NCBI GenBank assembly: GCA_950295325.1
Contig: OX485809.1
Coordinates: 27,418,144 to 27,482,143 of the forward strand
Length of the DNA: 64,000 bases
Reading direction: 5' to 3'
Source of the DNA: Polytrichum commune
Taxonomy: Eukaryota; Streptophyta; Polytrichopsida; Polytrichales; Polytrichaceae
Positions 13,057 through 64,000 of the stretch are shown in pieces; the first letter of the stretch is position 1, and the number at the start of each line of letters is the position of its first letter. Under the pieces are notes generated by a model that had not been told where the DNA came from, searched no databases, and saw only the letters and a list, made by a program, of their open reading frames with translations. The position numbers were made by a program, and so were the translations under genes.

Positions 13057-15334
13057 CCAAATGGTCAGTCCCTTTCCAATGACATGCACCTCATTTATTT
13101 CACATAGAGTGAAATGTTGACAAAAATCTAATGTCCCACATCAAAAGGTTACATGCATCGCCGCCTCCTTTGCTTCATGCGGTTCGCCCTTTGCAAACCG
13201 TACTTTGGTGGGCTTGCCGGCTCTACCCGTCCGCGAGCCCCAACCCCCTTGTGAGCTTTCGGCTCATGAAAGAGTCCGTTGCCTCTTTGACAACTCATGA
13301 GACATATCTCCCATTCATTTGAGCCTCAAGGTATACATGACTTGGCCTTGGCTTAAGGCTACTAGCCTTGGCCACAAAGCCACCATCTAATTCTCCGTCC
13401 ACCGCAACAATATGTTTTGGCTCGGTCCGCAAAGCCAACTTTTAACATTTCGTCCGTGGGACGAATTGGTTTAGTGCCACAAAAGCAATTTCCAATAATT
13501 TGTCCACAAAACAAACATGTTTTCCCTTGATAGCACAAAGCCACCTTCCCACACTCCGTATGCGGCACGAACATGAATTGCCTTGGTAGGACAAACCCAC
13601 CTTCCAACATTCCGTCTGCGGCATGAGTATGATTTGCCTTGGAAGAATAAAGCCACCTTTCAACATTCCGTTAGCGGCACCAACATATTTTGCCTAAGTA
13701 AAATGAACCAAACAATTTGCACTCATTTCTTTGGGACCAACTTTGGCTAAAGCCACTTGTGGTGATGCGCCGCCAAACTTTTCTTCGGGACCATCGGATT
13801 CAATGATCTTGCAAACTTGATGATCCCCACCATGTCCTCAAGAAGCCTTGGGGACTTAAACAAGGCATCCACCACCCGCTTTTAAAACCCCACCTAAAAC
13901 GATGCATTTCTTAGAAAGCTCGTCCGTTTTAGGTGTATCCTTCATTTGTGCGTTTGAATAGCGCACATAGGCCTTAAGGGGCCCCGGGTGCCTCATTAGC
14001 ACCAAGTTCATTTCAACATCCGAACCTTCGAAGCATCTCGAATTGAAATTTCAATCCAACATTAATACCCTCCAAGGTTTTGGGTGCATTCGGTATTCTA
14101 GGCCCCAAATACTATTTGAGGTTTGCGGGAGCCCTTTCAAAGGACAACTCCATTTTCCTCACCGAATCCACCCTCATGCCCACCATTACCATTAAAATCA
14201 ATGGTATGGTCAAACTCCATTTGCACATGATCCTTGTTCCAATTTGAGCCTCACAACCTTTTGGAAACCCCGGGCTCACCATCATAACCCGCATTTTTGA
14301 TACCCATGTTTCCCTCAAAGTGCGAGCTCAAAACTTGGAACCCTGCTCTGATACCAAGTGTCGCAACCCTTGCTAGCCCCCCCTTGACCATCTTGCCAAT
14401 TTTCAATTCTAGCAAAGGTTACGAGTCGCTAACCCTTCGCATACCGCCATGCTAATGGTTAGCTCCTCCTACCCCGGACCTTATAGTTCATAGGAGGGAA
14501 CCAACCCTCCTACTTTGCTTTCGGGACTCACCCCTTAATCGGTAACCCATTCCTAGATGTGGACTTCCATCCATGGAAGTCCAATCCCATGTTGATCATC
14601 GCGTTGCCGGAGCAACACTACAACAACCCGAACCATACTAGGCAACTATGGCCTCACAATGGGCCAATGCCCATGGAGGCCTTGCCATTCGGCCTCGGGT
14701 GGGTGAGGCCACACCACCTCACCCATATAAGCCTCTAGGACTTCACGCGGGGCCCCTACCCCACCGTCAACCAACCTCTTGTCTCTCTACCAAGAGTTGG
14801 GGCCAAGTGGACATTTTTCCTTTAGCTGCTGGGCCTAGAACCCCCTAGCAGCTTCAGACCATCATAACTTCCTTGTATGATGTCTGATCATAACAACCAA
14901 CCACTCCATCTTCATCTACGCTTCACGTAGATGCCGATGGACTCCTCACTTGCCCCATTCGGACAAGTATTGAGGACGTTATGCCTGTTTGAACCTTGGC
15001 AGTCCCGGGAATCACTCCCAGGCACTGCTGTACCAGGGCGCTGTCCCGGGACAGCGCCCCACTCAAATGGCCATAACTCCTAGCTCACACCTCCGATTGA
15101 GGTGTTCTTGAGCTTTCTAGAATCACCACGCCATGAGCTACGCATAGCTCATGGCCTTACCCTTGTGCCTCCTAGTCTTCGTGGGTGGGAGGCGTTCCCA
15201 ACGCCCGGGGCCCTCGCCCACACTAGGATCACTTGGGACCTCTCACCAACGGCGCCACAAGTCCCAGGTGTCACTCCGGGGTCCCCCTTGTGCCCATGGT
15301 GTTTCGGGCACTCCTTATGGAGAGGTGCGCGACA
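13057..15334 (-). mobile_element. Truncated family A retrotransposon (5' LTR plus 1.3 kb interior)
   Basis: On the minus strand it has a 5' LTR (15334-14359, 976 bp), a primer site GGTATCAGAGCAGGG (RC of 14341-14356), and interior matching 5818 to about 7107 of the full copy in reverse. It ends near 13057-13078 with no 3' LTR, so about 4 kb of interior plus the other LTR were deleted. The right flank is GATCG (15335-15339). The left junction shows GATTG (13052-13056), which may be the duplication with one change or chance. The gag-like frame resumes at 15335 and stops at 15370. Confidence 0.85.
14359..15334 (-). repeat. 5' LTR of the truncated family A element
   Basis: A 976-bp LTR in minus orientation, TGTCGCAACC (14359) to GTGCGCGACA (15334). 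It differs from the 4846 copy by scattered substitutions (CCCCCCCTTGACCATC at its 3' end), so it is an older or different subfamily member. Confidence 0.9.
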
Positions 15335-19079: not shown

Positions 19080-19299
19080 GTGCTCGTCTATCCTAGTGCG
19101 TCACTTGTAACATTACACCGTCCACATATGTTTAAAGTGACACAAGCATGTTACTTTAAATGTGCTGAAACGCAATTTTACGTCACTTGAATCGCAAAGT
19201 TACGTCATGTGAAACACAGAGTCACGTCACTTGAAACACAAGGTGACGTCATAAGAAACGCAATTTAACGTCATAAGAAACGCAACGGTCACGTCGTGA
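19080..19299 (+). repeat. AACGTCA/GAAACGC repeat cluster beside the MULE insertion
   Basis: A tandem-like run of TTACGTCACTTGAATCGC and ACGTCATAAGAAACGC units is interrupted at 19300 by the MULE and resumes at 35648 with the same unit type. The nine bases ACGTCGTGA (19291-19299) are the MULE target duplication and recur at 35639-35647. Confidence 0.8.
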
Positions 19300-19386
19300 G
19301 GGACGAGACTTGTATGTGAGCGGTGAGCAGAGAGCGAAGAGCAGAGAGTGGCGATTTGGAGAGCGGAGAGCAGAAATGGTGTAAAA
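19300..19386 (+). repeat. Left terminal inverted repeat of the MULE
   Basis: It reads GGGACGAGACTTGTATGTGAGCGG and then purine-rich GAGAGC units. It pairs imperfectly with 35540-35638. Terminal GGG is common in MULE ends. Confidence 0.75.
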
Positions 19387-19869
19387 ATAGGAAATATTCT
19401 ATATTAAATTTAGAATTTCCTTAAAATAGTACAAGAATATACTTAGAATATTCCAGATTATGCCAGAAATAGAAAAAATTTGGGACCTATTTCCGTGGAA
19501 TGTGTAGGCACTAAATAAAATAAATGCCTTGAATTTGAAATGGTCTGATTTAGTTTGGGAACCGTGAAGTGCAAAAATGATAGTAAAATTGTGATATAAT
19601 AAATAAGTAGATGATGAAAACCAAGGATGATCCCAAGATGTATAGAGACACATGATACAGTTGAGTATTGTAATCCAACATTTTGAGTTGAATAAAAATA
19701 ATCCATGCGATTGTATTTATTATATTATTGAGCTGACAATCTTAAATTATTCAATGAAAATCTTATATCACTTAGTCTATGTCGTACTCGATTAGAAACA
19801 TGGATGAATAGGCACTACTTCATCGATCTATCATGTTGATGGGAGAAAGGGACACTCCTAGAGTAAATC
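19387..19869 (+). other. AT-rich MULE subterminal region
   Basis: AT-rich DNA with no credible gene. It serves as the 3' flank of the minus-strand transposase and contains the inner part of the inverted repeat near 19489. Confidence 0.5.
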
Positions 19870-22800
19870 CTAGGTCCGATCTAAAGGGTGAGTTAAAATT
19901 CCACTCTCGAGAATTACTTTGACCTCGTTGAAACTGAAGGTTGGCGCGTGGATGAAAAGGTCTACATCAGGATTGCGATGGCAGACCTTTAAAAGAATAT
20001 AGTAAACATGCTTGCAATACGAGAATTGATTCCGCCCTCGAAAGTTGGTCATTGTCTTCTTGAACGCAGGGCATGTGCAACCCGGGAGGGAACTGATGGT
20101 GATATGGTATTGTGTCACATCGGGTGGCATCATCGAGTCTAGCGCAATGATGCAGCCATGGCCAGGGTGAGGAATCATTGTGACCGAGCGGAGTTGAGCT
20201 TTGAGGGAGTCCGAAGAGCCCATGGATAGCCGCTGCTGAGGGTTTGGACGGGTTGCGGTGCGCTTAACGAGCTTCCCTTCTCTCTTCCCAGGATACCTGT
20301 CCGCATCTGCTGGCACCGGCACGGAGTCTAGATTTGCCGGAGACGGTGCAGTGGAAAAGAGCCTTCTGGGTGAGACTGGCACTTTCTGCGGCAGTTGGAA
20401 TCCGGCCGCCTCGAGGGCCAGGATCTCACATTGCTTGAGGTTAGTGCCAAGTTTCACTGGCCAAACATCCGGAATGCTTGGTCTCTCCTGTTCCGCAGAG
20501 TATTGAACAACCCATTTGCGCCTGCTACCCTTAACGCACCTATGGATATCATCTGAGCAGAAGAAAAACTCTGTGGTCTCTTTCACATTCCTCCTAGTGC
20601 TGTGCCATAGACCGGTGTACGTAGGGGCAGGGGTTGATTTTGCACCCCTTACGATTCTCTCAGTACACTTCTTTTTGGTGACAGCTCTCTGTGCCCAACA
20701 ACATTTGGCAGAAGTCTTTGGCAACCGAGCGATGTGCCACTCCTTCACGTTCACCCTAGTCTCCTCGACGGCAGTGACGTGGCTGATCCGTCCCTCGGGG
20801 ATGTGGGACGGGACGACATTGTCGGCATATGGCGCCATGGGTGCAACTTCCGGGACATTGGAATCATCCTCTTCAATAATTATGGGCATGTTAGTGGAAC
20901 GAGTCCGGACAGCCCTACCAGAGCCACGGGGATGTGAGAAGTTGACCTTATCAGGTCTGTGCGACTCCTCTTCTGCTCCAAGAGGTAGATCTGCTTTCCG
21001 TTTCGTGGACCCGAATACCTCTTCCCCAGCCATGCAAGGCACCCGGGTACAGAACTCTTCTGCTCCAGGCATGTCCATCATGGGGTCTTCGAGGACTAAA
21101 GGATTACCCGTTTGCTTCGCCCTGCGCTCTGCCAACCTTAGCTTGAGCTCTTTCTTTGTAGGGCCTGTACCGCCGACATCACCTTTCAGGAACTGGTAGT
21201 AATTGACAACCTGTAGGAAGCCTCGAACGAAGTCGTCCACGGTAGCAACATAGAGGTCGCCGCCGCTATTTCCAGACACTTGAAGCCACTTGTTGTGTAT
21301 TGATTCGGCGAGATTACATGAAGGCATTTCTGCTAGTTCTCCTTCTGTAAATTTCTGCGTGCACATAGTGGAAGCAATTATAAATTGGAGAAGAGTTGTG
21401 AAAATTACAGTGAAAGAAAAAAAAAACAACAAGTTTTGGGACAACATACCCCGGTCATGAAGCCTCCCCATTGGCGATAACGGAAATGCCAGAATGCAAG
21501 CCAGAGCTCCAGTTTGTCAAGTGCCTTCTCTGTCACTGCCCCGGCGGATACCCACCATGCACGTAGCCCGTGGTACAGGTTTTCCGCTTCGTCCATGGTC
21601 CTCGCGGTCCTATATTGGTGGCACATCTTCTTGTGCTGCTCCCAGAGTTCTTCGGGAATGTATTTCTCGGTATACTTAACCATAGATTGGGTCCAATGAA
21701 ACTGACAGGTTCTCTCCCGGTCATCCATGCGGTCCTCCTTCTTCCCGTTGCCATATATGACCCGAACTGCATTCCAATTGGCCTGGGCGCTGTCGGCCAT
21801 GAAACCCTTGAAGTTGGTATCGACAACACCATTCCTCTCCATCACAGCATTGAGATTCTTCCAAAAAACGATCTGGGCATCACAGTCCTCCGATTGCATG
21901 TCACAACTTGCAATGGTCATGACACGACAATACGTGGAGTCATACACGTGGCATGCCATTGTGGTCCATTGTCTAACCCGTTTCACATGGTCGAACATCA
22001 TCCAAGCATTCTCCAGATCTTCGCCGGGCTGCATACGCTTCACCAAGTCTACCCCACTACCAGGCCCGACTTCCGACATCTTGAAGACAAAAACCTTGTC
22101 AAGATCAGCCCCTTGACCAGGGAATTTGTTCTCCTGAACAAAGGCCCATAAACTGATTCCACGGAGTTTGGTGATAGAGTCCATGACACCATACCTTTTG
22201 AGGTATCGGAAGCTCATGACCTTGTTGCGGATGTTCGGGGAAGCCATGTCCTTGCACCGGTCGAATACAGGAACAAGTTCCTCCAGAGTGAGCTTCTTTG
22301 GTGGCGCGTCATCGGATTGAAGAAGATAGTTGCCAATTAGAACTTTGCTAGCCTCCAACACAAGTGCACTCTTGGTAGCCTGAGGAGTCTTCTCGATCTG
22401 TTCTTCAATTAGGCCACTGATCTCAGCCTTAGTGTCTCTGTAGTCGCCCACCTTGACAGGGTGATCGTGAGTTCCAATGTGGATGCACGCTCTTGTGTGG
22501 TTGTTTTTGCCAGCAACATAATAAATTTTCGCTCCACATGTAGCAATACATGTTGGGGGTTCTTTACATACCTTGCAAACAAACGTAGAGTCAGGTGGGG
22601 GCGCTTGATCCACTACAAAGGCTTGGAGGGTACAACCTTCAAACTCTGTCTCGTTGACTTCGAAAATACGAGGTCGGCGGATCAAATATTCGCACTCCTT
22701 GTTGTTGCAACGCAGGTGTCCAACGCAAGCGGAAGAACGGAAGGACAAACCAAAGTCGTTTGTGATGTTGGTGGTGATGGTCTTCGTCCACACATGGCCG

Positions 22801-23609
22801 TCGTAACGCTTGTCCATTCCCTGCATTGACTTGGCCTGTGACCGTGCGGCCGTGTCACTAGCGGGTGGCAACTCAAATATGACGACACCATCGAACTCAG
22901 CAGGAAGGTACTCTACTCTCTCGTGTCTAATCACTGAGTAATCTAATTTTTTTAGAATATTTTTTTTTCCCGGCCTTCCTGCAAGTTGTTTTAGCAATGG
23001 AAATATGCTAACAGTCTCTTGGGACAAAGGATATACTTTAGGAGCATTCCCACTAACTATAACCTGAGGCGGGGGCTTGGTGGGACTGCCCTCTTCATCT
23101 GAAGAAAGTGTAATTACAGACTGAACTCTAACGTTTTCTACAATTGGCGTGTCGAGACCGGGCTCGAGCTTGACCTTCACATCACGTGGCAGAGGAGTTT
23201 GAATGGTGCACGTAGAGGAATTACGAGGAGTGAGGATCTCAGTAGACGCAGCCATCTGAGAATCAGTGAGGCCATACACTCGGTAACTACCTGGAGGAAG
23301 ACTCCAAAACAAGTTATTGTTCTCATCTCGCTGCGATACCCGACCAAGGGTGTATGTAAGTTCTGACGTGACAACATCAAAAATATCCTCGTCAACAATA
23401 ATAGTATCCTCTCTGAAGCCGAACCGAATACTCAGACGTTGGGACGTCACGTAAGCTAGACCGTCCTCTTGCATCCGAAAGGTAACTGGGACTCTCACAC
23501 CATCTGCATAGAGGACAGCCAACCCCAAGTCTCCAATAGCAGGAATATGAGCCATGATAAGGGGAATGAGCCCTTGCGGCAAGATGGAAATATGAAAGAG
23601 GATTCTAAA
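19870..23609 (-). CDS. MULE transposase with SWIM zinc finger (two exons)
   Basis: Exon 1 runs to 21450 (donor ACCGGG|GTATGT) and exon 2 from 21354 (acceptor CACGCAG|AAATTT) to the stop at 19870. Both boundaries are phase 0, giving about 1,210-1,230 residues. The frame opens at 23666 with a GTG; ATGs are at 23609 and 23555. Exon 1 has an N-terminal domain I do not recognise and a cysteine cluster (CVGHLRCNNKECEYL...CKVCKEPP), a likely zinc-binding region. The transposase core follows, with KGFMADSAQANWNAV and ERTCQFHWTQSM, typical of MULE/FAR1-like RNase H transposases. Exon 2 starts KFTEGELAEMPSCNLAESIH (the 'SNxxES.H' region) and ends with a SWIM finger (CTCPAF...YCKHVYYIL, CxC..CxH). I see no stops or frameshifts, so it may be active. 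It lies near the left end, transcribed outward. Confidence 0.85.
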
Positions 23610-23699
23610 CATTGTGGGCCATCTATATATTACAAATGGGCTGCCAACGACAACGACATGATCCACATGATGGATGAACTCTGAACGAAAGCTTCACTA

Positions 23700-25520
23700 A
23701 TATTTTCAATATGGAAACAGCCGCCCTTGGGTCTAAAAGTGATGGGTAACGCTGTCACGATATATATAAGTACAGCGTGCAAGTCATGGTAGACATTCTA
23801 CTCGACAAGCAATTAAATTTGATTATTTGGCGCCGACTTAAAGCATGTATCATAACTAGGTCTAGAGATAGACTTGACGTTTCAAGACAGGAATAGAACG
23901 AATGACAAAGACCCAATTGGGCATTAAATATAGGACTATCCCTCGTGCGAACACTTGTATAAGATCTCGTGATACTCAACTCCTTTGTTTTAGAATCATA
24001 AGTTATGGACTCTCGAGTGCCGTAAGATGTGTTCGGTTCAAGGGAGGATTTTGGGAATGTTGGAGTAGACATGCTCTGGAAGGGTGATACCTGACATGCA
24101 AAATCATATCAAGAGAAGGAAAAAGAGAGGGAAGTTGTATTTCAGTAGCACTAAGGCATTGAAGACAAGTAGAATGGGAAGGAAGAAGGCACAACACGAA
24201 AGATACGAGACAAATGGAATTAACAAAGTTTCCCTCCCAAACGTAGAACATCTTGCCAGAAAGGTGTGTAAGGTAAGGGTCAATTTGAATTAAAATTGAA
24301 AATGCAGTGGAGCAGTTACTTAAGTTAGTCATGATCATATGCCAATCCAAATTAGATATATTAATAACAAACATGAGGCTGGATGCCGAGTGACGTACTT
24401 ATAAATACACCAGAGACCACGTGAACCATTTAGTGGATATAAGGGACACCCTAAAGTAAAGTGTTTCTTTTGGAGTGGAAGATTGAAATGGGCAAGGGAA
24501 GAGCATTAACCTTTAAGGAGAAGCTAGAATAAGTTAGTTTAGTTGGAAGAGTATCGTCAAGGTATGGCTATACAGAATATTTCTTCTAATTAGTTTAGTT
24601 TGAATTATGTATTATCATTTGTACTATCATTTTTATTTTTATAAAACATGATATTCTTCATTTTTAGATTACTTCTGAATTATTTCTATAAATGTTATTA
24701 GACATCCGTGTCCATTCTTTTAATGTTCATTTTTATGATTCCTTATATGTTTATAGCAACTTGACTGTAATAAAAACATATCGACATTATGTGAAAAAGA
24801 TTATGGGATGGAATATTAGTGTGGATGTAATACAGGCGAGACACATACATTGATAGAGTGATGTTCACATAGGAGGGAAGTGTAGAATTTGTGAAGCCGG
24901 TTCAGTTACATGACAGGGTCCTCGCCGATAGAGTTAGTGAAACCAAAGGCGAAGAGGAGGAGGAAGGCATTTTTCTCAAGCAGGAAGCAATTAAGGGCAT
25001 CTAGGATGAGACAACCGAAACAACGATATGATAGCTTAAACAGCACAGTCAAGGCATTGGAATTCTCCCCAGACCGCACACGGTCAAGGTCTCGTATACG
25101 GAGAAGCCAGACTCACAGTGGTGAAGACATTGCTAGCAAGGAAGCTGGAGTGGGTACGACCAGACAAGTGGAGATATCACATGATCTATCGAGAATTTGC
25201 GAGACCCAGGTATGAACCTCAAGTCGATGTTAACATATATGCACTAGAAATTAGGGGTTGTATTCGTGAGCTAGAGAAGGCAACAAGTGTGGGCCCGTTG
25301 AAGCACTCGACATCACAATGAGACCGTCACAAGTGGAAGGGAACAAGACTGCCGCGGCAGTAGCCTACCATCGTTCCCCGCATTACAACGGACCTCTGAA
25401 CTAGGCTTGCAGGGTTGCAGCCACGATTTGGAGCGGGGGAGTGACTCGAGGGAAGGGCAGTGGTCGCCTCGTGGAGAGGTTTGAGGTGAGAGCCCTGGGG
25501 GATGAAATTTGAACCTCGCA
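23700..25520 (+). other. Unassigned MULE interior
   Basis: There is no well-supported gene here. Two weak open segments (24084-24293 and 24910-25215) share a Lys/Arg-rich KRRRKxFFSSxKxLxxSRM-like stretch. The region thus holds a diverged duplication of about 120 bp, possibly decayed exons of a small basic protein. It also forms the 5' region of the transposase gene. Confidence 0.4.
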
Positions 25521-25529
25521 AATGACTTT

Positions 25530-28316
25530 AGATGGCTGGTTTAGGGTTGGCAAAGGGCTCCTTAGTGAGGTATGAGGTGAGAGCTGGATGATCCTTAGTA
25601 AGGTTCAAGGTGAGAGCTGGGGCGGCAGAAATTTTGGTGGCTTTGTAGGGTGGCTGGATGCTCTTAGTGTGGTTCGATGTGATAGCTTAGGGGCCAGAGA
25701 TGAGAGGTGATCATATGAATTTCGGTGGCTGGATGGTCATAGTGAGGTTCGAAGTGGAAGTTGAAGCGGGCGGTGCGGTGCGGTTCGGTTCGGTTCGTTC
25801 GTTCGTTCGTTTCGTTTCGTTTCTTTCATTCTTCAGCTTTCTTTTTCAGCATCCTTAGTGAGGTTAGAGGTGAGAGCTGGGGCAGAAATGTAAGGTTATT
25901 ATCTGATTTTTGGTGGCTTCCTAGGGTGGTGGATGGTCCTTAGTGAGGTTAGAAGTTAGAGCTAAGGGCACTGTCGGATCCGACAGACCCCTAGGGGCAG
26001 ATATGCGCACCTCGCTTTTTATTTTCGGGAGGTTAGAGGTGAGAGCTAGGGGCAGAAATGCGAGGTTATTATCTGATTTTTGATGGCTTTCTAGGGTGGT
26101 TGGATGGTCCTTAGTGAGGTTAGAAGTTTGAGCTAGGGGCACTGTCGGATCCGACAGACCCCTAGGGGCAGATATGGACACCTCGCTTTTGATTTTCGGG
26201 AGGTTCAAGGTGAGAGCTGGGGGCAGAAATGTAAGGTTATTATCTGATTTTTGGTGGTTTCCTAGTGTGGCTGGATAGTCTTTAGTGAGGTTAGAAGTTA
26301 GAGCTAGGGCATTGTTGGATCTGACAGACCCCTAGGGGCAGATATGGGCACCTCGCTTTTGATTTTCAGGAGGTTAGAGGTGAGAGCTAGGGGCAGAAAT
26401 GCGAGGTTATTATCTGATTTTTGATGGCTTCGTAGGGTGGTTGGATAGTCCTTAGTGAGGTTAGAAGTTAGAACTAGGGGCACTGTCGGATCCGACAGAC
26501 CCCTAGGGGCAGATATGGGCACCTCGCTTTTGATTTTCAGGAGGTTAGAGGTGAGAGCTGGGGCAGAAATGCGAGGTTATTATCTAATTTTTGATGGCTT
26601 CCTAGGGTGGTGGACGGTCCTTAGTGAAGTTAGAAGTTAGAGCTAAGGGCACTGTCGGATCCGACAGACCCCTAGGGGCAGATATGGGCACCTCGCTTTT
26701 GATTTTCAGGAGGTTCAAGATGAGAGTTGGGGCAGAAATGTAAGGTTATTATCTGATTTTTGGTGCAGCCTAGTGTGGTTGGATGGTCCTTAGTGAGGTT
26801 AGAAGTTAGAGCTAGGGGCACTGTCGGATCCGACAGACCCCTAGGGGCAGATATGGACACCTCGCTTTTGATTTTCGGGAGGTTTAAGGTGAAAGCTGGG
26901 GGCAGAAATGTGAGGTTATTCTCTGATTTTTGGTGGCAACCTAGTGTGGTTGGATGGTCCTTAGTGAGGTTAGAAGTTAAAGCTAGGGGCACTGTCGGAT
27001 CCGACAGACCCCTAGGGGCAGATAAGGGCACATCGCTTTTGATTTTCGGGAGGTTCAAGGTGAGAGTTGGGGCAGAAATGTAAGGTTATTATCTGATTTT
27101 TGGTGCAGCCTAGTGTGGCTGGATGGTCCTTAGTGAGGTTAGAAGTTAGAGCTAGGGGCACTGTCGGATCCGACAGACCCCTAGGGGCAGATATGGACAC
27201 CTCGCTTTTGATTTTCGGGAGGTTCAAGGTGAAAGCTGGGGGCAGAAATGTGAGGTTATTATCTGATTTTTGGTGGCAGCCTAGTGTGGCTGGATGGTCC
27301 TTAGTGAGGTTAGAAGTTAGAACTAGGGGCACTGTCGGATCCGACAGACCTCTAGGGACTGATATGAGCACCTCGGTTTTGATTTTCGTGAGGGTCAAGG
27401 TGAAAGCTGGGGCATAAATGTAAGGTTATTATCTGATTTTTGGTGGCAGCCTAGTGTGGTTGGATGGTCCTTAGTGAGGTTAGAAGTTAGAGCTAGGGGT
27501 ACTGTCGGATCCGACAGACCCCTAGGGGCAGACATGAGCACCTCGGTTTTTATTTTCGGGAGGGTCAAGGTGAGAGTTGGGGCAGAAATGTAAGGTTATT
27601 ATCTGATTTTTGGTGGCAGCCTAGTGTGGCTGGATGGTCCTTAGTGAGGTTAGAAGTTAGAGCTAGGGGTACTGTAGGATCCGACAGACCCCTAGGGGCA
27701 GACATGAGCACCTCGGTTTTTATTTTCGGGAGGGTCAAGGTGAGAGTTGGGGCAGAAATGTAAGGTTATTATCTGATTTTTGGTGGCAGCCTAGTGTGGC
27801 TGGATGGTCCTTAGTGAGGTTAGAAGTTAGAGCTAGGGGTACTGTCGGATCCGACAGACCCCTAGGGGCAGACATGAGCACCTCGGTTTTTATTTTCGGG
27901 AGGGTCAAGGTGAGAGTTGGGGCAGAAATGTAAGGTTATTATCTGATTTTTGGTGGCAGCCTAGTGTGGCTGGATGGTCCTTAGTGAGGTTAGAAGTTAG
28001 AGTTAGGGGCACTGTCGGATCCGACAGACCTCTAGGGACTGATATGAGCACCTCGGTTTTGATTTTCGTGAGGGTCAAGGTGAGAGCTGGGGCATAAATG
28101 TAAGGTTATTATCTGATTTTTGGTGGCAGCCTAGTGTGGCTGGATGGTCCTTAGTGAGGTTAGAAGTTAGAGCTAAGGGCACTGTCGGATCCGATAGACC
28201 CCTAGGGGCAGATATGGGCACCTCGTTTTTTATTTTCGGGAGGTTAGAGGTGAGAGCTGGGGGCAGAAATGCAAGGTTATTATCTGATTTTTGGTGGCTT
28301 TCTAGGGTGGCTAGAT
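25530..28316 (+). repeat. 170-bp tandem array with a 16-bp palindrome in each unit
   Basis: Fourteen units of 169-171 bp are marked by GTCGGATCC at 25973, 26144, 26314, 26485, 26654, 26823, 26994, 27163, 27334, 27504, 27674, 27844, 28014 and 28184. Degenerate units extend left to about 25530. Each contains the perfect palindrome CTGTCGGATCCGACAG or a near copy, then CCCTAGGGGCAGATATG and TTATTATCTGATTTTTGG. The period is close to nucleosome spacing and typical of satellites. The open frames through it are by-products of repetition. Confidence 0.93.
25768..25830 (+). repeat. GGTTC/GTTC microsatellite
   Basis: A run of GGTGCGGTGC, GGTTCGGTTC, GTTCGTTC and GTTTCGTTTC steps lies inside a degenerate 170-bp unit. 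Confidence 0.8.
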
Positions 28317-29147
28317 TGTCGCAACCCTTGCTAGTCCCCTTAAAAATCTTGCCAATTCGCATTTCTAGCATAGGTTACGAGTACTAACCCTTCGCATACC
28401 GCCAAGCTAATGGTTAGCTCCTCCTACCCGGACCGGTTAGTTCATAGGAGGGGAACCAACCTTCCTACTTTGCTTTCGGGACTCACCCCTTAATCGGTAA
28501 CCCATTCCCAAATGTGGACTTCCATCGATGGAAGTCCAATCCCATGTTGATCATCGCGTTGCCGGAGCAACACTACAACAACCCGAACCATACTATGCAA
28601 CTATGGCCTCACAATGGGCCAAAGCCCAATGAGGCCGTGCCGTTCGGCCTCGGGTGGGTGAGGCCACACCACCTCAGCCATATAAGCCTCTAGGACTCTA
28701 CGAGGGGCCCCTACCCCACCGTCAACCAACCTCTTGTCTCTCTACCAAGAGTTGGGGCCAAGTAGACATTTTCCTTTAGCTGCTGGGCCTAGAAGCCCCC
28801 AACAGCTTCAAACCACCATAACTTTCTTGTATGATTTTTGATTCCAACAACCAACCACTCCATCTTCATCTACGCTTCACGTAGATGCCGATGGACCCCT
28901 CACTTGACCCATTCATGCAAGTATTGACGACGTTATGCCTGTTTGAACCTTGGCAGTCCCGGGAATGACTCCCAGGCAATGCTCGACCAGGGCGCTGTCC
29001 CGCGACAGCGCCCCACTCAAATGGCCATAACTCCTAGCTCACACCTCTGATTGAGGTGTTCTTCAGCTTTCTAGAATCACCACGCCATGAGCTACGCATA
29101 GCTCATGGCCTTAGTCTTGTGCCTCCTAGTCTCCGAGGGTGAGCGGC
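28317..29147 (-). mobile_element. Truncated family A LTR inside the MULE array
   Basis: It starts TGTCGCAACCCTTGCTAG (28317) and matches the family for about 830 bp up to CTCCTAGTCTCCGAGGGTGAGCGGCG. The last ~145 bp of the copy, which form the 5' end of the LTR, are missing. It splits the 170-bp array, whose units reappear from about 29420. Confidence 0.85.
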
Positions 29148-29241
29148 GTCTTTAGGCTGCGAAGTCTGTGTGAGCGGAGCGGCGAACCCATAACCCTTGC
29201 TTCAAACCCACTAGGCATCCTTAAAGAAAGAAAAAGACGAA

Positions 29242-29420
29242 GGGGAAGGAGAAGGAGAAGGAGAAGGAGAAGGAGAAGGAGAAGGAGAAGGAGAAGGAGA
29301 AGGAGAAGGAGAAGGAGAAGGAGAAGGAGAAGGAGAAGGAGAAGGAGAAGGAGAAGGTGAAGGTGAAGGTGAAGGTGAAGGTGAAGGTGAAGGTGAAGGT
29401 GAAGGTGAAGGTGAAGGTGA
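29242..29420 (+). repeat. Hexanucleotide microsatellite (GGAGAA)n then (GGTGAA)n
   Basis: Roughly nineteen GGAGAA units switch cleanly to about eleven GGTGAA units. The poly-Arg frame through it is not a gene. Confidence 0.95.
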
Positions 29421-30430
29421 GAGCTGGGGGGTGGAGGTTTAGGGTGGCTGGATGGTCCTTGTGAGGTTAGAGGTGAGAGCTAGGGGCACTGTCGGATCCG
29501 ACAGACCCCTACTGACAGATATGGGCACCTCGCTTTTGATTTTCGGGAGGTTTAGGGTGAGAGCTGGGGGTGGAGGTTTAGGGTGGCTGGATGGTCCTTG
29601 TGAGGTTAGAGGTGAGAGCTAGGGGCATTGTCGGATCCGACAGTCCCCTTGGGGCAGAAATGTGCACCCGAATTTTTTATTTTTATTGGACTTTTTGGTA
29701 GGCCAGATGCTCATTTGGACAGGTATTAGTTGGGGGTTAATGCACGTTAGTGAGGGTTTAGTCATGTTTAGATGCTCTTAGTGTGGTTCGAATTGATAGC
29801 TAGGGGGGGATTTAGAGGTGCTCTATAATCTGTTTGGCCTTTAAGGGTTTGGGATGCTCTTAATGTGGTTCGATTTGATAGCTAGGAGGGGCACAAACTA
29901 GAGGTCAGATTATAGTGGAGAGAAACAGGGCAGATTTGCTAGCATATTATGTGAATTATGGTAGATTATGTGGGTGGCCGAAAGCTCCCAATGAGGCTAA
30001 GGTTAGAGGTAGGGGTCTGAAATGTGTTTGTTAGCACCTGAATATTTGTGGCTGGCTTTAGCTTGTGAGGTATGATATGGAAGCCCAGGGGCACTGTCGG
30101 ATCCGACAGTCCCCTAGGGGCAGAAATGTGCATCCAAAATTTGATTTTTGTTGGACTTTTTGGTAGGCCAGATGCTCATTCGGGCAGGTATTAGTTGGGG
30201 GATTGTGCACGTTAGTGAGGGTTTAGTCATGTTTAGATGCTCTTAGTGTGGTTCGAATTGATAGCTAGGGGGGGATTTAGAGGTCAGATTATATTTGAAA
30301 GAAACATGGCATATTTGCTAGCATATAATCTGATTTCGGGTGGATTTTGGGGGTAGCTGAAAGCTCACAAGAAGGCTAAGGTTAGAGGTAGGTGGATTTT
30401 GTGGATGGCCGAAAGCTCCCAATGAGGCTG
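29421..30430 (+). repeat. Degenerate continuation of the palindrome-bearing array
   Basis: Diverged units continue past the LTR fragment and microsatellite. The palindrome recurs at 29489-29504, about 29628-29643 (TTGTCGGATCCGACAG) and 30094-30109, the last extended to 18 bp as ACTGTCGGATCCGACAGT. A longer duplicated block (TTTTTGGTAGGCCAGATGCTCATT...TTAGATGCTCTTAGTGTGG) occurs near 29690 and 30157. The array ends about 100-400 bp before the ParB/methyltransferase-like gene, so it may hold that gene's promoter. Confidence 0.8.
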
Positions 30431-30529
30431 AGGTGAGTTTGGTTGTATTATCATGTAAATATTGGGTGGCATTGTTCATTCTATTGGTTCTTATGTTGGT
30501 AAGTAATTGATTCTCAGGAGATTGTTGAG

Positions 30530-33500
30530 ATGGTTGCGGATGGAGAGTCATTGGATGTTGGGGTTCGCATTGGTGCTGGGTCATCCCTTAGTGTAGAGGA
30601 GCATATGGAGCAAGGGTCTCCGTTGTCATGTGCTGAACCTACTGGGCTTACACCTGGTAGTGGCGAACCGCAGACACCCGGGATGACACTCACCGGCTCA
30701 CCACCAGAATCGGATGTGGGTGTTCGTGTAATGGAGTATCGGATTCGCCACAATTTAAAAAAAGATAGTTTTTCAGTTGTTGAGGGCATGAGGATACAAC
30801 CGGTCGAAAAGTCCTCTATGAGAATCCCTCTCTGCAGGTTGATTCACATGCCATTGGTTCGGCCAACTCTCCGCAGCGACGTTACAAAGCTCATGGCAGC
30901 ATTTCAATTTGGATACCGAGCTGGGTCTGCCACTTTTTATGTGTCTACTGCAAATGAGAGTGGAGAGAATCGATTCATTTCTGCCAAAGACAAGCGTGAA
31001 TGGGGAGAGCTATGGAATGCAGAAAATAATAAGTTTGAGTTTTTTTTGCGCTCGGATAAGGACTTGATGAGCCTTAGTGGATGCATGTTCTTTGTGTATG
31101 ATGGTAACCACCGCTTGCTAGCGTGGAAGGAGTGTATTGAAACAGATCACAAGGACGATGCACTTTGGTATGAGAAACATGGTTGCCCAGAATGTGTCAT
31201 CCTCGACACAACGGGTGGGCGTGGAGACGTCCTTAATGCAATGCACGACATAAACAAGTAAGTTTGTTATTTTTTTGAACATTTTTTCCTTCATTTTTTT
31301 ATTTTCATCTAATGCCATTTATCTCAACCGCAACAGGGCTAACCAGACTGCGCACGTTAAGACTAGCCTTGTTCACACTCTACACCGCATCCAAAAATAC
31401 GGTTCGTATGATCTTAGCTACTACCAGCCATTGTTGACCGAGGAGCAATTCCAAGCGTGCAAGAGCAGAGGCCCCAAGAGCCCTTGGTACCCGCTGACCC
31501 AGGATCTTATGGTGTCCTTCATTTTCAATGTAAGTCACTCCAAATTCATCAAGCTCCTACTTCGCATTCATTACTTTTAGTCATGGTCTAACAATTTAGA
31601 ATACATGTCCAGCAAGAGATAGCCGATGCGGTAGATGAGGCGGCCCAAATCTTCAAGGAGGAAGTGCCTCTAGATGAGCAGTCAGGGAAGGGGTTGAGTG
31701 ATGTATTGGACGCTGTAATTAAGAAGACGTCTGAGGAACTTGGGCACAAGTTCAACAAACAACAGTCGATCGCAAACCCTGCCCTTGGAAAACAGTTCCT
31801 AGATGAGGTAATTTCCTTGTCATCCAATTTGGAATTATGTTTTTCGTATTGCTTGCATTCTTTGCAGCATTTTTTCAGTAAACATTCTAAAATTTACTTG
31901 GCCTTCTATTTTGATTGCATTTGTTTCAGATTACTAGGCATTATAGCGCCCACCATTCTCAAAAGATTGAGATGACATTGGAGAAATTGCAACTCATTGC
32001 CACTGCCGCTGTCGAGCCAGAGTATAAAGCCCGTTGGCTTAAGTGGTGGAACAGTGGAAGTTTCAATCGTGAAGCTATCCGGTTTCCCAAAAGTCCTGCA
32101 AGCGAGGACAACTTGAAATCTTGGCTCAATAAAGCAGCGTTCTGGGCAGGGGTACGTCTATCCTATTTTCTTTGCTTACCTTTCAATTCTTCATTTTGTG
32201 CCAATTCTCATGTTCGCCTTGAATTCCTTCACAGCTAGAGGATGCTGCGGTCAAGGAGTTACCGGATATACTAAGTGCATTGGGTGGGCTTGACGGAGAC
32301 GTGGAAGTTGATTCGTTGCCGGATTACTTGGAGAAGTGGCGAATTTGCCTTTGGGATAAGGCGTTCATTGGTCACTTCTCAGGGTCAGATATCTATGGAA
32401 AGGGGACGTGGTGGAAGGATGTCAAAGGCGCTGACAACATTGTCAAGCGCTTAATTTTCCGGTAAGTTAGTTGGGCCATCTTTTGTTCTCATTTATATCA
32501 AACTAGTTGTTTTCTAAGTTGCTTATTGGCCTCACTCCTTGGTTGTGAAGGTACATCAAGCACGAGCTTTTCAAGAAGAAGGCTTTGAAGAAGCTTCCTC
32601 CATTTCTGGATGCATGGTCGGATTCCTCTTCGCCCACCTTCATTTTTTCCCCGGCTCAAAAGCGCAACTTCTCCCTCCCGCATCTCCGCGAGTGTTGCTA
32701 GTACTTGGAGTGTAAGAGGACGTGGCAGCCGGATGAGGAGGCGGCCTTGAAGATTCGGCTCTCCGGTGGAGAGCCACCTTCTCAAAGCGATGAGGTTGTT
32801 CTTCTAGAGAGTCAGCTTCCGGAGGCGGATGAGGTTGTTGCGACTCTCGATGAGCCCAACACTCAGAAGTCCAAGAGGAGGAAGCGTGCGACTCAAGACG
32901 AGTCTTCACTAAAGAAGCGCGCGAGGAAGCTGAAGACTGTGGAGGATGATCCCCCTGCTTCACCTGAGGCGGCAGTTGCATCCACTGCAACTCTTAGTCA
33001 AGTTCCTACTCTTTCCAGGCCGCCTCCTCCGCCCGTTCTTTCATCTGCTAGGCGTCCTCCAGTTGTTTCAGAATGCATCTTGAATGCCTCTATTCTTCAT
33101 CAACGTCGTCATTTTCAGGATGTTTCCAACTTCATTCTTTCTCTTCCACCCTCCTATCCGCGGAGAGCTCTAGGCGTTGCGAGGTCAGATGTGGGCATGG
33201 CTGATCTTGTCATTGCCGACCTCCCGGAGAACCTGCCGGTACCCAATGTCTCCGATCCTTCCTATAGTGTGCCTTCCTGGAATGCATTGGATTCCGATTT
33301 TATTGGTGAACTCTTCGATTTCGCGGACGAGATCCTGCATGACGATGGAGCTCTCCTCCTCTTTCATCCAGATGACAATGGTGATTTCAGGGAGAGCATT
33401 GAAGACCACTTCGCTGCTTTTGGGTTCACGATCTTCAAGGAGTGGCTGGGAGTCAACCGTCTTCGCCTACATTCAGCTAAGCATAAGGACAAGACCACCA

Positions 33501-34461
33501 ACCTCTTCCAAGTTGTACTACTTGTTCGTGCCACCAAAACAATTGGATCTGACCTTGATAAGCGGCCCCGGCACTCGTCATTTCGCCTTCGCGATGCCAA
33601 TGAGCTCAAGGCTCTTGGCATTGAGCTCGACATGGATGATGCGATTATGAATTATACCGCAACTCCTCTCATGGACGGCTCCAAAGCTTGGCGTGGTCCC
33701 CGGGAGAAAGATATTTCTTTCATGTCCTCCTTGATCATGGCCACTACGGACATTGGACAGGTTGTGGTGGACATTAATGCAGGCGTTGGTATGTCCTAAT
33801 TCACTTGCCAACATATCCTAGTTTTCAATTTCTAAGTTTGTTTTTTTTTCCTTTGCTAACCTTTCCTCCGCAACAGGGACTTCTATCCATGCATGCAGGC
33901 AGCTTGGGCGCCATATCGTTGCTCTTGAGGAGGACGAGGACACCTTCAACCGTGTCCTTAAGCCACTTAAGAGTGTTCAGCCTACGGTGAAGGCTCCATC
34001 CATTGTTGTTGCTTCCACGCAGGCTTCACAAGGCACGCAGAAGAGGCCGCCGGCCTTGAAGCGATCGAGGCCAGAGCCCTCGCAGTAAGTGAGTATGATG
34101 ACCTTCTTCGCTTATTTTCTTTGTCCATTCAGCTTTTACACTTTCCATCCTCTTTCTTACATTTATCGTGTTTTTTTTCAGACTTGGCGTTGGAGCGGAT
34201 GTGTTGGGTACTCCCACCATGGGATTCACATTGCCTATCTATGCCCATGATATGGCGATGGTACTAGCGGCACAACCTTCTCCTACCGAAGCTAGTTCCC
34301 CGTCTCCACGTTATGACCCCCGTGCCTTAGACTTCTTCGAGCATTCTGCGGAGGTGGATAATGAGTGCCATAGCTTAGATTCCACTTCAGATGAGGGCGG
34401 CCATGAGGGTAGTATCTTTGGAAGTAGGGAATTTAGTAGTGACGACCTCATGGTTGATTGA
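30530..34461 (+). CDS. ParB-like domain plus DNA methyltransferase-like domain protein (8 exons, one in-frame TAG)
   Basis: Exons are 30530-31257, 31337-31529, 31613-31807, 31930-32151, 32235-32461, 32551-33788, 33877-34084 and 34182-34461. All have GT-AG borders with matching phases, and their sum, 3291 nt, is a whole number of codons (1096 residues). About residues 85-270 form a ParB/sulfiredoxin-like region: RIPLCRLIHMPLVRP, then FVYDGNHRLLAWKE (the DGxHR box). The methyltransferase-like part follows. A motif IV-type DLVIADLPENLP comes first, then DEILHDDGALLLFHP, and last a motif I-type VVDINAGVGTS..CRQLGRHIVALEED, the permuted (beta-class) order. In motif IV, DLPE stands where DPPY-type residues are expected, so catalysis is uncertain. 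A TAG at 32699-32701 (codon 572) falls between the halves: mutation, recoding or error. ParB-methylase fusions are known in bacteria and phages. Function here is inferred. Confidence 0.65.
32699..32701 (+). other. In-frame TAG between the ParB-like and methyltransferase-like halves
   Basis: The frame reads LRECC, TAG, YLECKRTWQ with good coding on both sides and no obvious flanking donor/acceptor pair. The DNA upstream is pyrimidine-rich and ends TGCTAG, so use as a weak splice acceptor cannot be excluded. Confidence 0.7.
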
Positions 34462-35400
34462 TTTTGGGTTTGATTGATTTGTTGGTTTGATTTATCGGTA
34501 TTTGGATTTATAAAGTGTTGTGTGGATTTCAATATTCCAATTATCTCATTGAATGCATCTTTTCGTTGTTCTCAAATCACGCTTCACTTGGTGGTCGTCA
34601 TACTCCAAAGAGAATTTAGTCCACCATCTTCTCACAATCTTAACCGCTAGTCACAAAACAATGTAGCATCCACCCACTCCAATAAAAAGTTGTTGCCTCA
34701 CACACCTCCTCCTTGTTTCCTTGAATCATAAGTATTCAATAATACTTGTTGCACACCACCCAACACACTCCAATTCATACTACCCGCATTGCATTCTTCA
34801 TTTTTGTTCACCATCTATAATGTTCACCCTCAAATGTTCACCCTCTATAAATGTTAACCCTCGGGAGTGGATCGAACTTTACATGTATAAAGGTGTTAAC
34901 AGTTAACAATTATAAAATTACTTCTTTGAACAATATGCAAATCTTAACATGTCCTAACTATAAGCAATTGTGAAGAGTAATTGTGAGAGAATATCATACA
35001 CAAAATTGCAAACCCAATCAAAACTTTATTCAATATCAAGTTTACAAATCATGGGTGAATTATGAATGTATTTCAGTCGTTAACATTTATAGAGTCAAAT
35101 TTACAAAGAAGGGAACACCGTTTTGTTAACAATTAACAGGTTTAACATTTATAGTGTGCAATATGTAGGGAGTAGAATAAAGTGAACGTTTGGAAATGGT
35201 TAACACTTATAGGTGTAACAGTAATAGAGGGTGGACTGTATGTGGAGAATTTTTTTCGCCAACCTCCTTCGTGTCACGTTCAAATAGTAAATATTATTTA
35301 ATTTACCGTAATATAAAATATAGTACACCATTTTGGTAATTATAATTGTGACGTCATAGTGATGTAAGCCCTAATTTTGTATTTTATTTTAATATTTCTA
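34462..35400 (+). other. AT-rich 3' region of the MULE with MITE-like inverted segment
   Basis: No gene. Between 34838 and 35236 the ends CACCCTCTATAAATGTTAACC and, in reverse, CAGTCCACCCTCTATTACTG form an imperfect inverted pair with repeated TTAACA words. A similar CCACCCTCTATAAATTAATG stretch lies at 40077-40096 in the CACTA element. This looks like a small MITE, perhaps mariner/pogo-like (CAGTnnnCCCTC ends, TA flanks), but only one clean end is seen at each place. Confidence 0.35.
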
Positions 35401-35539
35401 TGTTTCAAAAATCTATTAACTTTATGAATAGGGAAATGTTACTTTATTTCCACGGTAATAGAGTCCATAACTCTCCAAAGTTTCTAAAAATAGTTCAACA
35501 TTTTTCCCTCAATCCCGCGGTTATAGGTGCAATTTCTCT

Positions 35540-35638
35540 CTCATTTCATGTCTCAAATTGAGTTCTCCGCTCTTCGGTCTTCGCTCTCCGCTTTCCGCTC
35601 TCCGCTCTCCGCTCTCCGCTCGCATACTAACTTTCCCC
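35540..35638 (-). repeat. Right terminal inverted repeat of the MULE
   Basis: Pyrimidine-rich CTCTCCGCTCTCCGCTCTCCGC then GCATACTAACTTTCCCC ends at the target duplication. It is the inverted counterpart of 19300-19386. Confidence 0.75.
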
Positions 35639-35647
35639 ACGTCGTGA

Positions 35648-35826
35648 GGAATGCAGAGAAACGTTTCTTGACACACGCGTGTCACCAGAAACGCAATGTC
35701 ACGTCATAAGAAACGCAGATAAACGTCACTTGAAACATGAAATTATCGTCATTAGAAACACAATGTCGCGTCATTAGAAACAAAACTTTACGTCATCGCG
35801 GACAGGTATTGTAAGAATGAACTTAC
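35648..35826 (+). repeat. AACGTCA/GAAACGC repeat cluster, right of the MULE
   Basis: It resumes the array broken at 19299 with units such as AATGTCACGTCATAAGAAACGC, and runs up to the TNPA exon donor at 35821-35826. Confidence 0.8.
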
Positions 35827-37114: not shown

Positions 37115-38514
37115 CTGAACCTCTCACTCCGCTGTGCTTGCTCTCCTTGCGGCCCAACATTCGCTCATCAATGGCAATAGGTTTTAGGGCAGGGGGACTT
37201 ACGAAAGCTTTGCCGCCTTGACTAGGCGCCGCTTCCTCCGCTCCCTCCGAGTACGAGCAAGCTAGACGCTGGCGCGAGCTTCGACTCGGCTGGAAGTCCG
37301 ACTCCACATCATCCGATCGCCGCCTTCTCGCACTTGTCTTCACCGTTGGTGTCGCAACCCTTGCTAGCCCCCTTGACAATCTTGCCAATTTTCATTTTCT
37401 AGCAAAGGTTACGAGCGCTAACCCTTCGCATTCCGCCATGCTAATGGTTAGCTCCTCTTACCCCGGACCATATAGTTCATAGGAGGGAACCAACCCTCCT
37501 ACTTTGCTTTCGGGACTCACCCCTTAATCGGTAACCCATTTCCCCAATGTGGACTTCCATCCATGGAAGTCCAATCCCATGTTGATCATCGCATTGCCGG
37601 AGCAACACTACAACAACCCGAACCATACTAGGCAACTATGGCCTCACATTGGGCCAATGCCCATGGAGGCCGTGCCGTTCGGCCTCGGGTGGGTGAGGCC
37701 ACACCACCTCACCCATATAAGCCTCTAGGACTTCACGCGGGGCCCCTACCCCACCGTCAACCAACCTCTTGTCTCTCTACCAAGAGTTGGGGCCAAGTGG
37801 ACATTTTCCTTTAGCTGCTGGGCCTAGAACCGCCCAGCAGCTTCAGACCATCATAACTTCCTTGTATGATGTCTGATCATAACAACCAACCACTCCATCT
37901 TCATCTACGCTTCATGTAGATGCCGATGGACTCCTCACTTGCCCCATTCGGGCAAGTATTGAGGAAGTTATGCCTGATTGAACCTTTACAGTCCCGGGAA
38001 TCACTCCCAGGCACTGCTGTACCAGGGCGCTGTCCCGGGACAGCACCCCACTCAAATGGCCATAACTCCTAGCTCACACCTCCGATTGAGGTGTTCTTGA
38101 GCTTTCTAGAATCACCACGCCATGAGCTACGCATAACTCATGGCCTTACCCTTGTGCCTCCTAGTCTTCGTGGGTGGGAGGCGTTCCCAACGCCCGGGGC
38201 CCTCACCCACACTAGGATCACTTGGGCCCTCTCACCAACGGCGCCACAAGTCCCGGGTGTCACTCCGGGGTCCCCCTTGTGCCCATGGTGTTTCGGGCAG
38301 TCCTCATGGAGAGGTGCGCGACAGTTGGAGCAGCGGAGGATTTGATAGAAGAAACCGCGCGCGAAGGAAATAGGCCGCTCACGAAGTTTCCTTCAAATCC
38401 TGCCTCCTTCAATCGCAACGCCACCTCCCTCCTGTTTGCCGCGACCCTTGCATCACGCAGCAGCTCGTAGGGAGGAGTGACAGCATCCGCCTCCATATCT
38501 GCGTTGATCCACAT
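37115..38514 (-). pseudogene. CACTA TNPA-like gene, first exon, split by a solo LTR
   Basis: The ATG is at 38514 (MWINADMEAD). The pieces 38514-38324 and 37344-37115 join in frame after removing the LTR and one GTTGG copy, giving 140 codons plus one base before donor TCAG|GTAAAA. The segment YELLRDARVAANRREVALRLKEAG matches the conserved YExLRxxRIxxN helix near the start of many plant Ptta/En/Spm proteins. It is followed by basic (SARRRRSDD) and Ser-rich linkers. The gene faces away from the tnp2 gene, so the 38.5-40.4 kb gap should hold both promoters. Confidence 0.65.
37350..38323 (-). mobile_element. Solo LTR, family A, duplication GTTGG
   Basis: A 974-bp LTR in minus orientation with perfect GTTGG duplications at 37345-37349 and 38324-38328. 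It interrupts TNPA exon 1 between the P-T and V-K codons, and the frame is restored on excision. Confidence 0.95.
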
Positions 38515-50309: not shown

Positions 50310-51393
50310 TGTTGTCATTTAGGATTTGTGTTTTGTAGGTTTACATGACAACACTCCCTATGATCATATTTTCCAGTGCTTGCATTTTTTTTTCATCTTG
50401 AACAAGGGTTGCTGAGTTTCTGTGTGTTTGCTAAGGTCCACTGCCATTGAATTTTCATCGTGTGCACCCCTGCACACAATTTTGTTTCTACCCTGCACAC
50501 TTTTGTATTTCGTATTGCCTAAACTAATTCACATAATTCGTAAATGATTTGTAGGACTTACCTCACTCCTTGGGTGATGTTAAGGGTCCATGATTTCATT
50601 GGGCCTAGGAGTTGGGTTTTTTGGATCATTGTGTGGTCTTACCTGCTTCAGGGAATTTAGAAGAATCATTGAATGTTTTCATGGGATCAGTAGTTTCCTT
50701 GCATTTTTGGTACATTGGATTGTGCTCTAGGGAGATGCCCAGGGTCCTTGCATGTTTAATGTGGTTCATGGGCTTGTAATCCATTCAGGGTTTAGTCCTT
50801 AGGGTTCATGAGGATTTATATGATTCCTAGCAAAATGTTATGGTTCCTGAGGGGCGCCCCTCAATCTCAGAACACTTCCTTTGGACCATTCTAGTGACTT
50901 GGGTCCTGGAATGTTTCCAAAGTTCTGATTAAAACCTGGTGGTTCCTGTGGATTACCTTTTTTTTTCCTTAAGCCTCTAATTATGCTTCCCAAGCGTTCA
51001 ATCCTTTCCTGTGCTAGAGTTCATATATCCTTCTCCTATGATATTGTTCAGGAATTGACTTCTTTGTTGTAAGGAGTCTCTTCTGATTCCTATCCTTCAT
51101 TCCTATATTCCTGGTGATTAACCTCATTCCTGATGGTTCCTACCCCTATTCCTCGATTTCCTGATGATTCTCACTTCCTGAATCTATGTTTCCTGATGAA
51201 TGACAATTGTCCGGACGATTTCCTTCTTTCCTTTTCTGTCATGTTCCTCAATGCTATATTTCCATATGATACACCCTAATCCTGATGATTCCTAGACCCT
51301 CATTTCTATGGTTCATGATGTACTTATTGAATTCATAAATATTTGTATAGTTTGAACGTGCATTAATATTTGGAAATGTCCTATGTATTGCAG
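50310..51393 (+). other. 3' part of the giant intron of the transposase-like gene
   Basis: Non-coding, T-rich DNA full of ATTCCTGATGATTCCT-type low-order repeats (50900-51320). It ends with the acceptor TATTGCAG (51393). I see no gene. Confidence 0.55.
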
Positions 51394-63123: not shown

Positions 63124-64000
63124 TCCATAAGAATCGATCGACCCTCACTTGACCACACATAATCCTAGCAATTCCCCTCTTAATATTTTCACTTGTCTTG
63201 GTGTGGTTATAATTTTTTTAGGAGGTGAGGAAAAGAACCTGCAAGCCCACTTAGGTGAAAGAATCCCAATAGGGGATAGGCATGTTCATGTTAATTTTTT
63301 GGTTAAGTCGGAGCATCACCTCCGCACCTTCCCGCAAATTAACACTCACCACAATACCGATTGTGAGGGGGTGACCTTCCGAGTAGATTATGTTAAAAGT
63401 CGAGGCTTCACCCTTCAACTTCTCACACCATCCACAATTCGGGAATTACCCTCTACAACGGATAACAACAATCACGAGTACAAAAGGCATTCCTTAATTA
63501 GTTAATGAGTTCACTTTGAAGAAATAAACATACCTTGAGCAATCGCATCCCCCTGTGAGTTAGCACTCCCCTCAATCGTGACTCAATGTAACAACACCAT
63601 AAACTTTGTGAAATATTAATTTAATCTAGAGCATGAAATGACAACTCCCAAAACTTTGAGACTCACCCCGAGGTGAGTGTCAAAGTTCAATGTCCTAAGG
63701 TGAATTTACCCTCTAATGTTTTAATGAGCTACTCGGTTATAGGTTCCTTTTAAGTTCTTAGCAAATCCCCAAAAAGGTTGAGGACGTACCTTCGCCGCGC
63801 TCCTTCCTCAAAAATGAATTTGCGTAATTGACAATGCAATTCATTCCAAGGAATAGTTGAAATACAATGAATTCAAATGTAACCCAAAGAGAGAATACTT
63901 ACCGAGTTTCGGGTGCTCCTTCCCTTCTCTCAAGTTTGTGTCTCCAATTTTTCCTAGTTGCCTCCAAGTCTCCTAGTCGCCTCCAAGTCTTGTAACTACC
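63124..64000 (-). other. 5' leader of the gag-pol element (presumed)
   Basis: Upstream (on the minus strand) of the gag ATG I see no LTR end, no primer site and no domain-bearing ORF up to the window edge. A plus-strand open frame at 63149-63505 has no recognisable features. The element's 5' LTR, if present, lies beyond 64000. Confidence 0.4.

Follow-up and report, generated by a model that had tools for sequence, protein, structure and literature searches.

Genes that join a ParB-like domain to a DNA methyltransferase are already known from transposons of algae (PMC12477816). In the description given there, the large DNA transposon Sola1-1_Ec32 of Ectocarpus carries, on the strand opposite to its transposase, an accessory gene for a 1104-aa protein with a ParB-like domain and an N4/N6 methyltransferase domain, and Iyer et al. 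2011 and Petroll et al. 2025 are cited for green and red algae (PMC12477816). Compared by description, the Polytrichum commune element analysed here shares this arrangement but belongs to another transposon superfamily and another host, and a site array goes unmentioned in the description of Sola1-1_Ec32. Among the matches listed from open-licence papers, none reports a transposon ParB-methyltransferase from a land plant. In Arabidopsis, VANDAL transposons encode the accessory protein VANC, whose targets form tandem repeats and evolve in step with it (PMC5735166, PMC10398659). Judged from these descriptions, the likeness to our element is that a short motif is amplified in noncoding tandem repeats and that motif and protein diverge together, whereas the VANC21 motif, YAGTATTAY, differs from the long inverted repeats found here. 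Prokaryotic ParB-methyltransferase fusions, of which Bce_0392 is a named example (PMC5512222), likewise place a ParB region before a permuted methyltransferase. A complete 443-aa fusion of this kind was also found at positions 1468-2799 of locus L001 on the 61-kb contig C12, which belongs to the same assembly (L and C numbers are our handles for loci and contigs); it has DPPY and PFAGSG motifs, unlike the family described below, and its protein is 75% identical to viral contig L074, so that contig C12 is probably a contaminant or phage-like. What is new in P. commune is a tandem palindrome array upstream of the gene and, at related genes, arrays with other dyads, which for the most part change with the protein clade.

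The DNA analysed, hereafter the window, is a stretch of 64,000 nucleotides of P. commune contig OX485809.1. It contains a recently amplified, MULE-like DNA transposon that carries a transposase and an accessory gene:

19291-19299: left target-site duplication ACGTCGTGA, 9 bp, matching 35639-35647
19300-35638: complete transposon, 16,339 bp, its ends placed by comparing it with the contig C3 copy and with three further right ends
19300-19354: left terminal inverted repeat, imperfect, outer part by eye
19870-21516, minus strand: transposase, second long reading frame, 548 aa
21405-23693, minus strand: transposase, first long reading frame, 762 aa, no Pfam match
25860-28320: tandem array, 14.5 units of 170 bp, holding 14 CTGTCGGATCCGACAG sites
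28321-29140: dispersed repeat inserted in the element, end approximate
29489-29504, 29628-29643 (1 mismatch) and 30094-30109: three more palindromes, between array and start codon
30530-34461, plus strand: accessory gene
35564-35638: right terminal inverted repeat, outer part by eye
35639-35647: right target-site duplication ACGTCGTGA

In the terminal inverted repeats, 19318-19354 pairs with 35564-35600 at 78%. Contig C3 carries a second full copy, with 99.6-99.9% identity to the window over 19300-26458 and 29416-35314, 95% over 25860-29420 and 98% in the final 396 bp. An earlier note on this DNA, made from the sequence alone, had placed the gene in a Mutator-like element and suggested looking for other copies within 9-bp duplications; the C3 copy is flanked by one, TGGTACAGT, and both copies with both flanks read (window and C3) thus have 9-bp target-site duplications, as a Mutator-like element should. 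When 29 transposase sequences were scanned at E values up to 1, PF10551 (MULE transposase) did not appear among their matches, and none of 51 transposase relatives had an informative name or Pfam domain. 'MULE-like' is therefore our own wording. The first transposase frame has invariant Cys/His residues and, by eye, DDE-type motifs, while a SWIM zinc finger in the second is weak (E 0.14, below cut-off). The element lies between two stretches (19166-19295 and 35687-35796) of a tandem repeat with a unit of about 22 bp (GAAACGCAATTTAACGTCA type), and thus seems to have jumped into such a repeat. The element also holds a GAAGGA microsatellite of about 30 units (29239-29417), and the C3 equivalent of its insert (L035 3048-3880) is 92% identical to window positions 14359-15195 and 37350-38184. 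Elsewhere in the window, 40360-43097 matches Transposase_21 (tnp2, E 6e-64) and, weakly, Transpos_assoc, genes that we take to be those of a CACTA-type transposon; 51367-53307 holds a 646-aa open frame without a Pfam match, by eye a transposon protein; and the minus strand of 55903-63144 has frames of 977 and 1151 aa that resemble a retrotransposon polyprotein by eye.

The accessory gene lies on the strand opposite to the transposase, the two genes being divergent, and its product has the ParB-like motif in an N-terminal region, followed by a conserved middle and, at the C-terminus, a methyltransferase fold. The eight exons proposed earlier, with GT-AG borders and consistent phases, were borne out over 30530-34461, as was the order of the motifs DGNHRLLAW, DLPEN and DINAGVG:

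30530-31257, plus strand: exon 1, with DGNHRLLAW from 31100
31337-31529, plus strand: exon 2
31613-31807, plus strand: exon 3
31930-32151, plus strand: exon 4
32235-32461, plus strand: exon 5
32551-33788, plus strand: exon 6, with the end of the helical middle part, a linker, motif IV and the start of motif I
32699-32701, plus strand: in-frame TAG, codon 572, in exon 6
33218-33232, plus strand: methyltransferase motif IV, DLPEN, in exon 6
33770 onward, plus strand: motif I, DINAGVG, beginning in exon 6
33877-34084, plus strand: exon 7, with the remainder of motif I and an acidic loop (ALEEDE)
34182-34461, plus strand: exon 8, acidic tail

The model has 1096 codons plus a stop, in agreement with the 1096-residue product claimed before, but the frame is interrupted at codon 572, so that the window copy encodes no such product and the description 'intact gene' was rejected for it. 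The TAG is private to the window copy, being present in none of 29 other copies read (L004-L033 minus L010, which is the window itself); a single one of these, L021, has a different stop in exon 6. The window copy is thus a pseudogene of a gene that is itself real.

The 408-Mb genome contains multiple copies of this gene. Searched with the part from exon 6 onward, it gave at least 113 matching stretches (82 scored of 2071 candidates, hence a lower bound), 46 of which, the window included, cover at least 361 of the first 372 query residues at 87-98% identity; L040 reaches the same length at 42% identity. Identity to the window is 98.1-99.9% in nineteen other copies, measured over about 4.1 kb (over just 2.9 kb in L015), and 90.9-91.9% over 2.2-2.9 kb in ten more, L024-L033. 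A search with the related protein P0001 gave at least 94 stretches (40 scored of 2959 candidates) and revealed many more genes of the type; 5 loci were taken at length together with 20 short gene pieces and 10 upstream stretches, two of the latter belonging to subfamilies of the window element and one to L040. The family falls into four clades that are 33-44% identical to one another and dispersed across the genome. In the protein database, the window protein found at least one relative and an alignment used as query found two, all from Ceratodon.

Five comparisons between subfamilies were made over 31860-34461 (exons 4-8 and introns). Introns differed by 12.5-13.1% and third codon positions by 10.4-13.3%, versus 4.3-6.2% at first and 1.9-2.9% at second positions, and this gradient, which was present in all five comparisons and supports both the exon model and a coding function, was not seen between the close copies L008-L020 and L008-L022. 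In exon 6, dN/dS was 0.14-0.21 in 7 of 9 computed pairs (11 pairs attempted), the exceptions being L024-L025 (0.99) and the close pair L008-L022 (0.47). These patterns indicate that the subfamilies diverged under purifying selection. As MULEs capture genes, and the window copy is broken, the gene might be a functionless fragment carried as a passenger in Pack-MULE style; a full-length gene under purifying selection, in four such divergent clades spread through the genome, makes this very improbable.

The methyltransferase-like domain with permuted motifs reported in the earlier note was confirmed. The window domain alone scores 28.7 bits against PF01555 (N6_N4_Mtase; curated cut-off 26.7), a longer window piece scores 26.6 bits, slightly below that cut-off, all three members tried match, and P0001 scores 30.4 bits; no methyltransferase match was found in 6 kb of L042, and a viral scan by a narrow method confirmed no relatives of this part. 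Together with motif IV preceding motif I, the profiles and a structure model of a Ceratodon homolog establish a C-terminal permuted N4/N6 DNA-methyltransferase fold. The consensus of the catalytic motif IV is (D/N/S)PP(Y/F/W). The window departs from it, having DLPEN, i.e. D-x-P-E rather than DPPY, and we therefore make no claim of an active methylase. D-[LI]-P-E-N is present in 27 of the 29 other copies, one has DLLEN and one lacks a recognizable motif; the acidic residue recurs in L040 (DLPEG), L041 (DLPEG) and L044 (EYPDG), and L045 has FPDG after a stop. As motif IV has lost its aromatic residue, the main role of the fold in these families is probably to bind SAM or DNA, although low or altered methyltransferase activity may persist.

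If the protein were an active DNA methyltransferase, marking the element that encodes it with N6-methyladenine or N4-methylcytosine, this would fit the permuted fold, its motif I DINAGVG and the Ceratodon relatives, which retain D-T-P-F and D-Q-P-Y at motif IV. Changes of this kind in motifs IV and I would be expected to abolish methyltransferase activity, however, and the acidic motif IV across the P. commune copies, together with the loss of the first glycine of motif I in Ceratodon (DLSASTG, DLAASTG), leaves the proposal doubtful; it is because of motif IV that we rate an active 6mA writer lower. The authors of the Ectocarpus study suggest that its relative binds and modifies its element (PMC12477816), a view that favours such a writer.

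The assignment of the N-terminal part is more tentative. The ParB/Srx motif is a DGxHR..A type box, and the ParB-like label comes from one conserved motif, DGNHR, which occurs in 22 of the 26 loci read from this genome as well as in the window and P0001, with the variants DGNYR (L062, L066) and DRNHR (L068) and a broken form (L069), and is invariant in 11 aligned members picked for few stops. The ParB-like domain claimed earlier has its box. PF02195 (ParB/Srx) was listed by none of 11 members at E values up to 10, although the fold may be there without a match, and hhalign gave 0.1% for the family against 6 ParBs, leaving the ParB halves of the family and of the prokaryotic fusions without a profile match. 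The same type of profile comparison gave 94.5% for the methyltransferase halves of the prokaryotic fusions, so that the ParB half has at the least diverged further. Structure models were of low confidence (block pLDDT 38-68 over P0001 241-400; mean 37 for window exon 1), and neither the Pfam, PDB-profile and profile-profile searches nor the two structure models decided for or against ParB. All VIA-align and Foldseek rows listed are of the methyltransferase domain, which fills them, and the absence of ParB there is therefore uninformative; viral and prokaryotic scans by a narrow method confirmed no relatives of the ParB part.

The array upstream of the accessory gene is built around the 16-bp palindrome CTGTCGGATCCGACAG. 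In the window this has 17 sites at up to 3 mismatches, 13 of them perfect, all within 25971-30109, where 0.24 would be expected; of the 14 in the array, 11 are perfect, two have 1 mismatch and one has 3. The palindrome varies by 2.2% among units versus 7.4% for the rest of the unit, a degree of conservation equalled by 26 of 138 other 16-column stretches, and unit shuffling was not significant for the window array dyad (P 0.095). It is also kept in the C3 copy and in the subfamilies L088 and L089 (91-92% identical in the gene), where the array units of L088 lack it but six window-type palindromes lie in the stretch read. A different, 24-bp perfect palindrome, GGGCGCTGTCCCGGGACAGCGCCC, occurs seven times outside the element (138, 4223, 5121, 11429, 15036, 41456 and 59454), where no ParB-type gene was seen, and in imperfect form in the insert of the element (about 28990); that a dispersed repeat of the window lacking such a gene carries a palindrome of this kind weighs against a special tie of dyads to the accessory gene.

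At related genes most arrays carry other dyads of a common design, two arms around 2 nt: GGTGGTGGTCGG-AC-CCGACCACCACC in L040/L087, AAATGTGTGTCTCGG-CA-CCGAGACACACATTT in L041/L080, GGTGTCTCGG-AA-CCGAGACACC in L083 (with related dyads in L081 and L082), AGTTTGGGTCG-NN-CGACCCAAACT in L042, L043 and L045, GGTGCCGT-TA-ACGGCACC in L044 and L086, and CCTCAGCCGG-CA-CCGGCTGGGG in L084 (an array of 2.3 units). The dyad of L085 is weak, with a 3-nt centre, and unit shuffling was not significant there (P 0.185), in the larger L089 array (0.110) or in L081 (0.055). A dyad of at least 7 pairs was present in the largest array of 14 of 15 loci with these genes, and in 16 of 25 test arrays listed versus 1 of 14 control arrays (up to 3 per test locus and up to 6 per control, controls from L046-L053); the loci with dyad arrays are not independent and represent about ten families. 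In L042, L043 and L045 the region upstream of the gene contains, besides a 32-bp array, a second palindrome, CAGACCCTGTGCGTTAACGCACAGGGTCTG, which is perfect over 30 bp.

In the protein tree the accessory-protein clades have full support. The window joins L040, with which its half-site shares GTCGG; L041 groups with L054, L056 and L057, the half-site there being CTCGG except that the left half in L054 reads GTCGG; and L042 groups with L043 and L045. L063 is placed together with L044, L064 and L065, yet has a different dyad, sharing no innermost base with L044/L065 despite 55% protein identity. The window half-site has 6 bases in common with L054 (44% identical) and 5 with L040 (58%), and the bases adjoining the centre are CGG in the window, L040, L041 and L063 types and TCG in the L042 type. 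Dyads thus appear largely to follow protein clades in a match that is strong but, because of L063, not complete.

Internal repeats bound by transposases exist in other transposons, and the dyad arrays could be such enhancer-like binding sites, the ParB-methyltransferase protein doing something else. The transposase could be the dyad reader because it sits in the same element and would co-diverge, a point that weighs against the accessory protein as reader; the window array lies between both genes, and in L041 and L044 dyad arrays also occur within the span of the accessory gene. However, at L040/L087, L041/L080, L042, L043, L045 and L065/L086, loci examined for the accessory gene, arrays immediately precede that gene, and this, with the dyad classes tracking accessory-protein clades, makes transposase sites an unlikely explanation.

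The whole is best explained, with a probability that we put at about one half, by a self-recognising accessory protein that acts on the control region of its own transposon, a reading in which the binding, and whether the protein methylates at all, are inferred. As a dimer, the protein would bind the dyads of its own element and load on the palindrome array; its action on the control region would then let the element evade silencing by the host or govern its own expression. Each protein would behave as if marking its own transposon, and the window pseudogene copy would depend on intact copies. Such a private, arrayed address resembles VANC in VANDAL anti-silencing, and the protein may work in a VANC-like manner with a prokaryotic-type protein. 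The likeness to ParB-parS is looser, binding of the palindromes being predicted from co-occurrence and partial co-divergence. parS is 16 bp long, and both systems have a ParB-type motif and several palindromes near the gene, but here the palindromes stand in tandem arrays, with as many as about 15 units in a single stretch, and the setting is a eukaryotic transposon. That a true ParB-parS-like module operates in a eukaryotic transposon lineage, in which a clamp of ParB fold, with an attached methyltransferase fold that now senses SAM or reads DNA, would load on the palindromes, spread and block silencing, with sites and clades co-diverged and each family holding a private address within one genome, is improbable.

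These results caution against taking every methyltransferase-like gene of a transposon for one that methylates. If the self-recognition reading is true, it would represent a second, independently built form of sequence-specific self-recognition in plant transposons, one that uses prokaryotic-type domains, and about ten protein-site pairs with different dyads in one genome would provide testable predictions.
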